Below are positions 8,213 to 11,737 of a stretch of 11,957 nt of DNA, one piece after another; the first letter of the stretch is position 1; each line of letters begins with the position of its first letter. The notes under the pieces were generated by a model that ran no database searches, was not told the origin of the DNA, and worked only from the letters and a program-made list of their open reading frames with translations. Where the stretch lies: assembly GCA_902805985.1 (NCBI GenBank), contig CADCUW010000488.1, forward strand, positions 1 through 11,957, given 5' to 3'. Made by a program: the position numbers and the translations under genes. The stretch is from an uncultured Rubrobacteraceae bacterium. GTDB lineage: Bacteria > Actinomycetota > Rubrobacteria > Rubrobacterales > Rubrobacteraceae.

Positions 8213-8254
8213 GCCTTTTACAGGCGACGACGGGAACGAGTAAGGCCGCCGATC

Positions 8255-8550
8255 CCCGTCAGAGCGAGCCGGGGACGGTGCGAGCCCGGTGCGGGAAGCG
8301 GCCCGAAGATCCTCCCCGAGCCGCCGGCCCAAAGCGGGAGGCCGCGAGTAGCGGCCTGGACGTTACTAGGACCGGCCGGGTCCGCCCGTTAGAGCGGGGG
8401 CGTTCCGCGAGAGCGTGACGCGACAGAGTGGTTCGGGCTTCGGGCCCGGGCAAGCGGGGTGGTACCGCGAGGGTTCTCAACAGGCCCCCGTCCCTGCGGT
8501 TGGAGTGGGAGACTCCGTCCGCAGGCGGCGGGGGTTTAGCTTGAGAGGTA
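8255..8550 (+). promoter_or_regulatory. T-box riboswitch, isoleucine-specific, ileS leader
   Basis: The conserved T-box GGGGTGGTACCGCG lies at 8456-8469. GCGG and CCGC close the bulge that holds TGGT (8460-8463), which would pair with the ACCA end of uncharged tRNA-Ile. Upstream, a short stem I is closed by CGGGGA (8270-8275) with TCCCCG (8313-8318). The sequence GAAG-ATC-CTCCCCGAGC puts an ATC (Ile) specifier at 8309-8311. Stem II/III-like hairpins follow (GGCCGC/GCGGCC, 8340-8356; CCCGTTAGAGCGGG). After the T-box, CCCCCG, CCTGCGG and GGAGT (8485-8506) pair with ACTCC, CCGCAGG and CGGGGG (8512-8534) in a long hairpin. TCTCAA (8475-8480) can also pair with TTGAGA (8541-8546), covering part of the ribosome binding site GAGAGG. 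Only TTT follows the hairpin, so control of translation seems likelier than termination. Confidence 0.9.
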
Positions 8551-8557
8551 GTGGGCC

Positions 8558-11500
8558 ATGGCGGCATTCGAGAAGGTAGACCCGAGGGTACGGTTCCCCG
8601 AGCTTGAGGAGAGGGTCCTGGATCTCTGGCGGGATCGGGAGACCTTCCGCCGCTCCGTGGAGGAGCGGCCCGAAGATAGGACGTTCGTGTTCTACGAGGG
8701 GCCGCCGACGGCCAACGGGAGGCCCGGCTTCCACCACGCGCTCGCGCGGTCCTTTAAAGACCTGATACCGCGCTACAAGACCATGCAAGGCTACAGGGTC
8801 GAGCGCAAGGGCGGCTGGGACACCCACGGGCTGCCCGTCGAGATCGGGGTGGAGAAGGAGCTCGGCCTCCAGGGCAAGGACGACATCGAGCGCTACGGCG
8901 TCGAGGACTTCAACCGCCTCTGCCGCGAGTCGGTCTTCCGCCACGTGGACGACTGGAAGGCGATGAGCGAGCGCCTCGGCTTCTGGGTGGACATGGATGA
9001 CCCGTACCGGACCCTCGACGCCTCCTACATACAGAGCGTCTGGTGGGCGCTCAAGACGCTCCACGAGAAGGACCTCCTCTACGAGGGCTACAAGGTCAGC
9101 GCCCACTGCCCCCGCGACCAGACCTCCCTCTCCTCCGCAGAGGTAGCCCTCGGCTACCAGCAGTACCCGGAGGACGTGGTGGACCCGAGCGTCTACGTCA
9201 GGCTGCCGCTGGCTTCGCCGGAGGACGAGAACACGAGCCTCCTGATCTGGACGACCACCCCGTGGACCCTCGTCTCAAACGCCGCCGTCGCCGCCAACCC
9301 GAAGGTGGACTACGCGACCGTCGAGACGAACGGGGAGCGCCTGATCGTCGCCTCGGACCTCGTGGAGAGGGTCTTTGGCGATGACGGCCACAGGGTCGTC
9401 GAGACCCGCAAGGGCTCGGACCTTGAAGGCCTGAAGTACCGCCGTCCCCTCGACTACGTGGACGTGGAACCGTCGGAGAACCTGTGGACCGTCGTCCTCG
9501 GCGACTACGTCACGACCACCGAAGGCACGGGCCTCGTCCACACGGCCCCGGCCTACGGCGAGGACGACGCCCGCGTCGGGCGCCGGTACGGCCTGCCGAC
9601 CATCCACCCCGTAAAGCCCGACGGCACCTTCGACGGGCGGGTCGGCCCGTTCGCCGGCGTGTTCGTCAAGAAGGCCGACCCGGGCCTCGTGGAGGAGCTG
9701 CGCGAGAGAGAAGTGCTTTTCCGGGCGGAGGAGTACGAGCACGCCTACCCGCACTGCTGGCGGTGCGGGACGCCACTCCTCTACTACGCCAAGAAAGCCT
9801 GGTACGCCCGCACGACGGCGGTCCTCGACGGCCTTCTCTCCGAGAACGAGGGCATAAACTGGGTCCCCGAGCACGTGAAGTGGGGCCGTTTCGGGGACTG
9901 GCTCCGCAACAACATCGACTGGGCTTTAAGCCGCGAGCGCTACTGGGGGACGCCGTTGCCGATCTGGCGCACAGACTCGGGCGACACGGTGGTCGTCGGC
10001 AGCGTCGAGGAGCTCAAGGAACTCGCCATAGGCCCCGTCCCTGACGACCTGCATCGCCCCTACATAGACAACGTCCGCATAAGACACCCCGAGACGGGCG
10101 AAGAGGCCCGCCGCGTCCCCGAGGTCCTCGACGTCTGGTTCGACTCGGGCTCGATGCCGTTCGCCCAGTACGCCTACCCGCACTCGGGCGAGGAAGGGAC
10201 AGAGCACTTCAGGCGCCAGTTCCCGGCGGACTTTATCTGCGAGGCCGTGGACCAGACGCGGGGCTGGTTCTACTCGCTGCTGGCCGTCTCGACGATGCTC
10301 TTCGGCAAGTCCTCCTACGGGACGTGCCTGGTGCTCGGGCACATCCTGGACTCGAACGGCAAGAAGATGAGCAAATCTTTGGGCAACGTCATCGACCCGT
10401 GGGAGGTCTTCGGCAAGCAGGGGGCGGACGCCCTGCGATGGGCGCTCTACACGGCGACGAGCCCGGGCAACACGCGGCGGTTCAGCGAGGATCAGGTCGA
10501 CGAGGCCGTCCGCAAGTACATGCTCACCCTCTGGAACACCTACTCGTTCTTCGTCACCTACGCCCGCATAGACGGCTTTGATCCCAAGCGGGACTTTGTC
10601 GAGCCGGAAGACCGGACGCTGATGGACCGCTGGGCCCTCTCGGAGCTCCAGCTCACGGTCAAGACCGTCACCGAGCGCCTGGACGCCTACGATGTGACGG
10701 CGGCGGGAAGGGCCGTCGGGGAGTTCGTGGACGAGCTCTCGAACTGGTACGTCAGGCGTAGCCGGCGCCGGTTCTGGAAGGGCGAGGACGACCGCGACAA
10801 GAAGGCGGCCCACTCGACCCTCTACGAGTGCCTGACGACGGTCACGAAGCTCACCGCCCCCTTCACCCCGTTCGTCGCCGAGGAGCTCTACCAGAACCTG
10901 GTCGCGAACGCCGACCCCGAAGCACCAGACAGCGTCCACCTCGCGGAATGGCCCCTCCCCGAGGAGCGGCTGGTGGACGAGGGCCTCTCCCGTCGCATGG
11001 CCGCGGCGCGGCGCGTCGTCGGTCTCGGGCGGGCGGCCCGCAACGCCGCCGCCGTCAAGAACCGCCAGCCCCTGCGCGAGGTCGTGGTCGTGGACGAGTC
11101 CTCCGAGGGGGGTGACCTCGCCGAGGGCGTCGAGGACCTGAAGGATATCGTCCTCGAAGAGCTGAACGTCAAGACCTTGCGCTTCGGGGCGGCCGAGGAC
11201 GTCACCGACTACGACCTCAAACCGAACCTCGGCGTCGTGGGTCCGAAGTACGGGAGGCTCGTGCCGGGTCTGCGGCGGGCGCTGGCGGAGGCCCCGCCTT
11301 CGGTGGGGGCGCGGGCCGCTGCCGGCGAGGCCGTCGCCGTCGAGGTGGAGGGCGAGGAGGTAACGCTCTCTCCAGAGGAGCTTCTCGTGGAGCCGACCGA
11401 GAGGGAGGGTTACTCCCTGGCGCGAGAGGGAGGTCTCTCGGTCGCGCTCGACGTCCGGTTGGACGGGGATCTCGAGGACGAGGGGCTCGTGCGGGAGCTC

Positions 11501-11737
11501 GTCCACAAGGTCCAGAACTTGAGAAGGGACGCGGGCTTCGAGATAGAGGAGGGCATCTCCGTCGGTCTGCGGGGCAACGGGCGGGTCGCGGAGTTGCTCG
11601 GGGGGCGCTGGGGGGATTACTTTATGGCCGAGGTGCTGGCGCGGAGCCTGGATCTCGACGCCGAAGGGGACGGCGGGTTCCAGGAGGTGAGCGTCGACGG
11701 CGAGGCGTTGGAGGTAAGGCTCAGGCCGCTGGGGTAG
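8558..11737 (+). CDS. ileS: Isoleucyl-tRNA synthetase, IleRS2 type with GXHH signature
   Basis: Charges tRNA-Ile with isoleucine in the cytoplasm. It has 1059 residues, the length of the long IleRS2 (eukaryote-like) type. The N-terminal Rossmann part has GPPTANGRPGFHH: where most synthetases read HIGH, this one reads GFHH (residues 57-60). The editing domain has the Thr-rich WTTTPWTLVSN near residue 230 and GTGLVHTAPAYGEDD near 325-345. Then come HCWRCGTPLLYY (Cys400, Cys403), DVWFDSGSMPFAQYAYPH, EAVDQTRGWFYSLL and KMSKS at residues 603-607. The C-terminal half is the anticodon-binding region, ending with an IleRS2-like LVRELVHKVQNLRRDAGFE domain. ATG 8558 is preceded by GAGAGG with nine bases between. 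It is controlled by the T-box leader and its own promoter. GXHH is linked in the literature to mupirocin hyper-resistance; resistance here is inferred. Confidence 0.97.
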   Translation: MAAFEKVDPRVRFPELEERVLDLWRDRETFRRSVEERPEDRTFVFYEGPPTANGRPGFHHALARSFKDLIPRYKTMQGYRVERKGGWDTHGLPVEIGVEKELGLQGKDDIERYGVEDFNRLCRESVFRHVDDWKAMSERLGFWVDMDDPYRTLDASYIQSVWWALKTLHEKDLLYEGYKVSAHCPRDQTSLSSAEVALGYQQYPEDVVDPSVYVRLPLASPEDENTSLLIWTTTPWTLVSNAAVAANPKVDYATVETNGERLIVASDLVERVFGDDGHRVVETRKGSDLEGLKYRRPLDYVDVEPSENLWTVVLGDYVTTTEGTGLVHTAPAYGEDDARVGRRYGLPTIHPVKPDGTFDGRVGPFAGVFVKKADPGLVEELREREVLFRAEEYEHAYPHCWRCGTPLLYYAKKAWYARTTAVLDGLLSENEGINWVPEHVKWGRFGDWLRNNIDWALSRERYWGTPLPIWRTDSGDTVVVGSVEELKELAIGPVPDDLHRPYIDNVRIRHPETGEEARRVPEVLDVWFDSGSMPFAQYAYPHSGEEGTEHFRRQFPADFICEAVDQTRGWFYSLLAVSTMLFGKSSYGTCLVLGHILDSNGKKMSKSLGNVIDPWEVFGKQGADALRWALYTATSPGNTRRFSEDQVDEAVRKYMLTLWNTYSFFVTYARIDGFDPKRDFVEPEDRTLMDRWALSELQLTVKTVTERLDAYDVTAAGRAVGEFVDELSNWYVRRSRRRFWKGEDDRDKKAAHSTLYECLTTVTKLTAPFTPFVAEELYQNLVANADPEAPDSVHLAEWPLPEERLVDEGLSRRMAAARRVVGLGRAARNAAAVKNRQPLREVVVVDESSEGGDLAEGVEDLKDIVLEELNVKTLRFGAAEDVTDYDLKPNLGVVGPKYGRLVPGLRRALAEAPPSVGARAAAGEAVAVEVEGEEVTLSPEELLVEPTEREGYSLAREGGLSVALDVRLDGDLEDEGLVRELVHKVQNLRRDAGFEIEEGISVGLRGNGRVAELLGGRWGDYFMAEVLARSLDLDAEGDGGFQEVSVDGEALEVRLRPLG

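Follow-up and report, generated by a model that had tools for sequence, protein, structure and literature searches.

The isoleucyl-tRNA synthetase (IleRS) encoded by ileS in the window (the whole analysed stretch of 11,957 nucleotides, from an uncultured Rubrobacteraceae bacterium) has GFHH where the class I signature HXGH is expected. This raises the question of which type of IleRS the gene encodes, whether it serves its host as the housekeeping enzyme or as an acquired spare, and whether the altered signature would make it insensitive to mupirocin. The gene and the elements of its product considered here are as follows:

8558..11737, + strand: ileS, encoding an IleRS2 of 1059 amino acids, stop codon included (ORF, TIGR00392, PF00133/PF08264/PF19302, trees)
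8726..8737, + strand: GFHH, residues 57-60, replacing the class I signature HXGH (direct reading and alignment)
10340..10342, + strand: His595, mapped to Phe586 of IleRS1 and His582 of PmIleRS2 (column counts and motif spacing)
10364..10378, + strand: KMSKS, the second class I signature, canonical (direct reading; 120/120 listed homologues)
11141..11722, + strand: DUF5915, the C-terminal domain (PF19302, 143.9 bits, residues 862-1055)

The list of open reading frames placed the ileS frame at 8558-11734, with its stop codon at 11735-11737 and a product of 1059 residues. Direct reading of bases 8726-8737 (GGCTTCCACCAC) gave the codons GGC TTC CAC CAC, that is, GFHH at codons 57-60, in the context ...GPPTANGRP-GFHH-ALARSFKD.... 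In pairwise alignments, GFHH fell without gaps on the signature of Priestia megaterium IleRS2 (HVGH; GVHH in structure 8c8w) and on HVGH of Thermus thermophilus IleRS (1ile), and it also occupied the signature columns when 222 IleRS and one ValRS were aligned together. The preliminary description had placed GFHH at the HIGH position and had asked whether another segment might be the true signature; both kinds of alignment put GFHH on HXGH. With Gly at position 1, His at positions 3 and 4, and the hydrophobic residue Phe at X, GFHH has the composition of the G/AXHH signature. GFHH and KMSKS were found together in all 120 homologues listed (the best 120 of 8000 scored).

Profile and domain searches were then used to assign the enzyme. 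The product scored 958.4 bits against TIGR00392 (cut-off 621.4), which identifies it as an isoleucine--tRNA ligase. The Pfam search found the catalytic domain PF00133, the anticodon domain PF08264 and, at the C-terminus, DUF5915 (PF19302), which we take to be a marker of type 2 IleRS; in agreement with this, DUF5915 was absent from the domain annotation of the IleRS1 homologues listed. The same search gave no match in the ileS product to the IleRS1 zinc finger PF06827 (zf-FPG_IleRS) at E 0.001. Thus, the type 2 C-terminal domain is present and the IleRS1 zinc-binding motif is not matched, as expected of an IleRS2. The best solved matches were 8c8w, 8c8u, 8c8v and 8c9d, spanning residues 6-1014 of 1059; from PMC10485003 and the alignments these are taken to be forms of P. 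megaterium IleRS2, and 8c8w carries GVHH. The match to 1ile scored 918.5 bits.

A FastTree phylogeny was built from the 222 IleRS and one ValRS with both signature stretches removed, using rows of at least 800 residues with a readable signature, from which duplicates, split genes (e.g. L130 and L159) and truncated genes had been left out. The result showed that 180 IleRS2 separate from 42 IleRS1, and that the window IleRS lies within the IleRS2 branch in a clade of 35 members, all GFHH, with support 1.0. An IQ-TREE analysis of 54 rows grouped ten Rubrobacteraceae GFHH rows with an SH-aLRT of 100; the run warned of a long ValRS branch, which affects the root and not this group. IleRS2 stood apart from IleRS1 in both trees, with the motif columns left out. 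Profile, domains, solved matches and trees therefore agree with the earlier assignment to the GXHH class of IleRS2, and on its sequence the ileS product is an IleRS2 of the G/AXHH class.

The preliminary description had also put ileS under a T-box. The elements upstream of the gene are as follows:

8218..8498, + strand: T-box-like leader upstream of ileS (RF00230, 61.7 bits, E 5e-13)
8309..8311, + strand: AUC, the isoleucine specifier codon of the leader (position read from the RF00230 alignment)
8458..8469, + strand: GGTGGTACCGCG, the T-box antiterminator core (RF00230 alignment)
8474..8547, + strand: long G+C-rich hairpin overlapping the antiterminator (fold of 8440-8560)

A search of Rfam at the gathering threshold gave no match in the window, and the leader appeared only with an E-value threshold, its score of 61.7 bits (E 5e-13) lying below the RF00230 gathering score of 93. 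The specifier AUC fits the downstream ileS and the core GGTGGTACCGCG is present, as in a T-box. All 17 further loci searched (16 relatives' genomes and contig C538 of the same bin) had a leader of the RF00230 type, scoring 43.8-91.6 bits and in every case less than the gathering score, and the core had the form of GGTGGTACCGCG in the other leader loci compared except L017, L018, L094, L108, L170 and L206. The T-box claim thus stands as regards specifier, core and recurrence but falls short of the Rfam cut-off. Folding of 8440-8560 gave -71.7 kcal/mol (z -4.71), and in the hairpin at 8474-8547 the GAGAG of the Shine-Dalgarno-like GAGAGG (8543-8548) is base-paired; the antiterminator piece 8450-8498 alone folded no better than shuffled sequences (z -0.26). 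Actinobacterial ileS T-boxes thought to be translational were described in 2005, with Rubrobacter xylanophilus among the genomes used (PMC1262725). The leader resembles them in preceding an ileS gene of this phylum and in having Shine-Dalgarno-like bases paired in a competing hairpin. It differs in that several relatives show, by eye, T runs downstream of the hairpin, a feature of T-boxes that terminate transcription, and in that the scores lie below the Rfam cut-off. Control of transcription and control of translation may both occur in one family. In the window, uncharged tRNA-Ile probably governs ileS expression by way of the T-box-like leader.

The distribution of GFHH was determined in 39 Rubrobacteraceae genomes, 34 of which had a match over the ileS cut-off. 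GFHH was present in 34/34 readable genomes, and five of the 39 (G001, G003, G044, G048 and G051) had no readable N-terminus. The window corresponds to contig C488 in an assembly read as a metagenome bin (G000; 4.23 Mb in 707 contigs), 88.6% complete with 5.93% contamination. A search of the bin for a second ileS, proposed earlier, found another full-length gene on contig C538, whose IleRS is 94% identical and also carries GFHH. C538 is collinear with the window over 5609 bases at 91.2% identity and a further 339 bases at 91.2%. Given this collinearity and the contamination of the bin, the C538 gene is probably the copy of a sister strain or species, and reads as such rather than as a spare; a duplication in the same genome retains a small residual chance. 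Among the matches listed, two full ones over the ileS cut-off were found only in this bin of the 39 family genomes. G053 has a second N-terminal ileS fragment, also GFHH, and an HMGH in the row of the bin itself belongs to a locus (L003/L004) read as ValRS.

The gene neighbourhood was compared in relatives. A molybdopterin oxidoreductase adjoins ileS, as in the window, in 4/7 relatives' loci (L009, L010, L105 and L106, of which L009 and L105 seem to come from a single genome); in Rubrobacter taiwanensis (L023), a cultured relative whose IleRS likewise has GFHH, transporter genes lie beside ileS instead, and L011 and L012 had too little upstream sequence for the comparison. Between 550 and 8059 on the - strand, the window carries a sortase, an endonuclease V, the molybdopterin oxidoreductase, two peptide-type ABC permeases and a family 5 solute-binding protein. 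At 0.914, the GC3 of ileS falls inside the span of 0.876-0.918 seen for the six other window genes. A search for IleRS1 in eight family genomes found 18 zinc-finger matches, all in frames of 269-597 amino acids, too short for an IleRS. The suggestion that the gene encodes the main housekeeping enzyme is thus very probably right, in view of the single full copy elsewhere in the family, the kept neighbourhood and the leader in 17/17 loci. The best reading is that the swapped state is vertically inherited and fixed in Rubrobacteraceae as far as sampled, and that it does not represent resistance gained recently or by acquisition.

It is scarcely conceivable that GFHH stems from faulty sequencing or assembly or that the true signature lies elsewhere, a reading to which the fragmentation of the bin into 707 contigs lends some colour. 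The C538 copy, the 34/34 readable family genomes and the 120/120 listed homologues are identical at this place, so that neither chance nor a sequencing slip accounts for it; the same residues recur in other genomes and in metagenome proteins, the stretch aligns without gaps to solved IleRS, and the independent copies ruled out assembly error as its source. It is likewise very improbable that a different, standard IleRS serves the organism and that the GFHH copy was gained for resistance. Such a history would fit the two full-length ileS of the bin and has a precedent in the plasmid-borne acquired IleRS2 known in Staphylococcus aureus (PMC10485003). However, the second copy is itself GFHH and sits on a contig collinear at 91.2% identity, the other family genomes showed no second match over the cut-off, the zinc-finger matches in eight of them all lie in frames too short for an IleRS, and in both trees the GFHH clade belongs to the family itself. 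Copy number and base composition, together with the gene neighbourhood and the two trees, led to rejection of an acquired spare, and the vertically inherited housekeeping enzyme is the reading followed below.

The signature was also surveyed in 148 Actinomycetota genomes with a completeness of 95% or more, the window's own excepted; 145 of the 148 were readable (not G056, G137 and G151). GXHH was found in 79/145 readable genomes, 78 having a GXHH IleRS2 alone and one (G154) having GXHH together with HXGH. The other readable genomes had HXGH IleRS2 (20), HXGH IleRS1 (20), HXGT IleRS1 (22) or HXGN (1), and there were the rare states AXHT (2) and GXHT IleRS2 (1). Without the window's own family (16 of the 148), the count of GXHH was 63/129 readable genomes. 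GXHH and HXGH were both present in families f8, f10 and f25. The two IleRS2 of G154, with GVHH and HYGH, lie on distant tree branches (L191 and L249). In f8, the IleRS of G090 (L199) has HIGH and is nested among GXHH relatives, so that it seems to have reverted to the canonical form; this genome has 7% contamination. An IleRS2 of G076 (L222) has the signature HFGN. That the swapped signature is the commonest ordinary state of IleRS in Actinomycetota, kept across most families having it and no answer to an antibiotic, is a tentative reading that we regard as rather doubtful.

Two further alterations were found in the phylum. In the IleRS of genomes named Gaiellaceae (Gaiella occulta included; L257, L258 and L259 of G168, G169 and G127), both class I signatures are altered. 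In the 120 homologues listed for L257, the first four signature residues are AVHT in 74, GVHT in 40, PVHT in 5 and ALHT in 1, and the place of KMSKS reads EMHGS in 84, EMHSS in 35 and EMHAS in 1, with both lysines gone; the alignment showed that the DQTRGW segment is changed as well. The Gaiella-type IleRS was the only match of its level (620-742 bits) in five genomes of its own and its sister group, the next-best matches there scoring 211.5 bits or less; the G127 enzyme, at 620.0 bits, lies just under the TIGR00392 cut-off of 621.4. The sister group, f38 (L254 and L256; G115 and G130), has GVHH with (D/E)MHYS in place of KMSKS. A literature search for Gaiella, KMSKS and isoleucyl-tRNA synthetase, run outside most subscription journals and all preprints, found no paper. 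The second alteration, HXGT, has Thr instead of the final His of HXGH and occurs in 22/42 IleRS1 (L111, L136, L139, L142, L144, L146, L147, L149, L150, L153, L157, L162-L167, L169, L173, L175, L177 and L180), with three changes on the tree. HXGT was present in 115/118 readable sequences among 120 listed homologues of one such IleRS1; relatives of one HXGT group are named Candidatus Solincola or Geothermincolia, and four HXGT IleRS1 have KMSKL. In contrast, HXGH was reported in all IleRS1 of a tree with 158 IleRS1 (PMC10485003). A search for mupirocin, isoleucyl-tRNA synthetase and Coriobacteri within the same range of literature found none. The Gaiella-type IleRS without both signatures and the HXGT IleRS1 are more surprising than GFHH itself.

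The residue at X was compared among natural GXHH enzymes (n=151). The result showed Phe in 37, Ser in 35, Val in 29, Thr in 22, Ala in 13, Ile in 10 and Leu in 5, and this wide variation suggests that the site is tolerant. By parsimony, Phe arose at X in three changes, in Rubrobacteraceae, in one f2 genome (L170) and in one f7 genome (L206). Seven further positions passed the filter for co-change with Phe, and each of them was also found in most of seven sisters lacking Phe. The legend of Figure 1 of PMC10485003 lists Ile, Val, Leu, Met and Tyr at X; relative to that legend, Phe, Ser, Thr and Ala are additions. Ser, Thr or Ala occupied X in 70/154 G/AXH(H/T) IleRS2 versus 0/26 HXG(H/N) IleRS2 (all loci), a contrast between swapped and canonical enzymes that is suggestive only, as the sequences are related, with 12 trait changes within the first group and few lineages in the second.

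The G/AXHH class of IleRS2 was described in 2023, its measured natural members having millimolar Ki for mupirocin (PMC10485003). The Ki is 6.6 mM for Deinococcus radiodurans IleRS2 (DrIleRS2, ALHH), the HVGH form of which has an 823-fold lower Ki (PMC10485003), and 10 mM for Streptomyces griseus IleRS (SgIleRS), which is without tRNA-dependent pre-transfer editing (PMC4861432). The window enzyme shares with these two the exchange of the first and third signature residues (PMC4861432, PMC10485003), but X is Leu in D. radiodurans and Phe here. P. megaterium IleRS2, the best solved match, has a His at the position of IleRS1 Phe586, as does the window enzyme, but its wild type is canonical (HVGH) and is one of the organism's two IleRS (PMC10485003). 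T. thermophilus IleRS has the IleRS2 core in common with the window enzyme but carries HVGH and has a Ki of 0.20 uM. Asn70 and Phe586 of IleRS1 touch mupirocin, Phe586 being the stacking residue (PMC10485003). The Phe586 column holds Phe in 42/42 IleRS1 and His in 84/154 G/AXH(H/T) IleRS2, and the window enzyme has His595; the Asn70 column, mapped by motif spacing, holds Asn in 42/42 IleRS1 and Ala63 in the window enzyme. By this mapping, both named IleRS1 contacts with mupirocin appear to be absent from the window enzyme. We infer that His59, the third residue of GFHH, does the catalytic work that falls to the first His in HXGH enzymes and that its bulk would clash with mupirocin, which is predicted to bind only at millimolar concentrations; charging of tRNA-Ile would stay normal. 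A millimolar Ki is expected because the same swap occurs in IleRS2 surroundings like those of the measured G/AXHH enzymes, and it is by analogy with these that high mupirocin resistance of the enzyme and its host is predicted.

The prediction would fail if Phe at X left mupirocin affinity at the micromolar level of an ordinary IleRS2 despite GXHH. The natural millimolar enzymes are those of D. radiodurans (ALHH) and S. griseus, no measured G/AXHH enzyme is stated to have Phe at X in the accessible parts of PMC10485003 and PMC4861432, and the literature searched gave neither kinetics or structure of any GFHH enzyme nor a Ki for one. Searches that missed most subscription journals and all preprints found nothing related on Rubrobacter and mupirocin, and recognised only PMC10485003 on the altered motif. 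However, in the published account it is the third His, not X, that clashes with mupirocin, and the motif exchange took effect in three IleRS2 backgrounds with Leu or Val at X (PMC10485003); moreover, X varies widely among natural GXHH enzymes and the search for positions co-varying with Phe yielded no other one. Micromolar affinity is thus improbable, and a millimolar Ki is the value expected for the window enzyme.

Taken together, these results make it highly probable that ileS encodes the only, housekeeping IleRS of this Rubrobacteraceae bacterium, an IleRS2 with a swapped GFHH signature that is vertically inherited, predicted insensitivity to mupirocin and probable control by a T-box-like leader; a further ileS gene in the source organism has a small residual probability, as the bin contains a second ileS and is 88.6% complete with 5.93% contamination, and 5/39 family genomes are without a match over the cut-off. 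New but modest are the family-wide occurrence of the swap, the Phe at its X position and how prevalent GXHH is across the phylum. The class I signature is changeable within one phylum, and this opens both the succession of events and the cause of the swap to testing. For Rubrobacteraceae, intrinsic mupirocin tolerance would be predictable from sequence, as the family's usual IleRS is the form expected to be insensitive.
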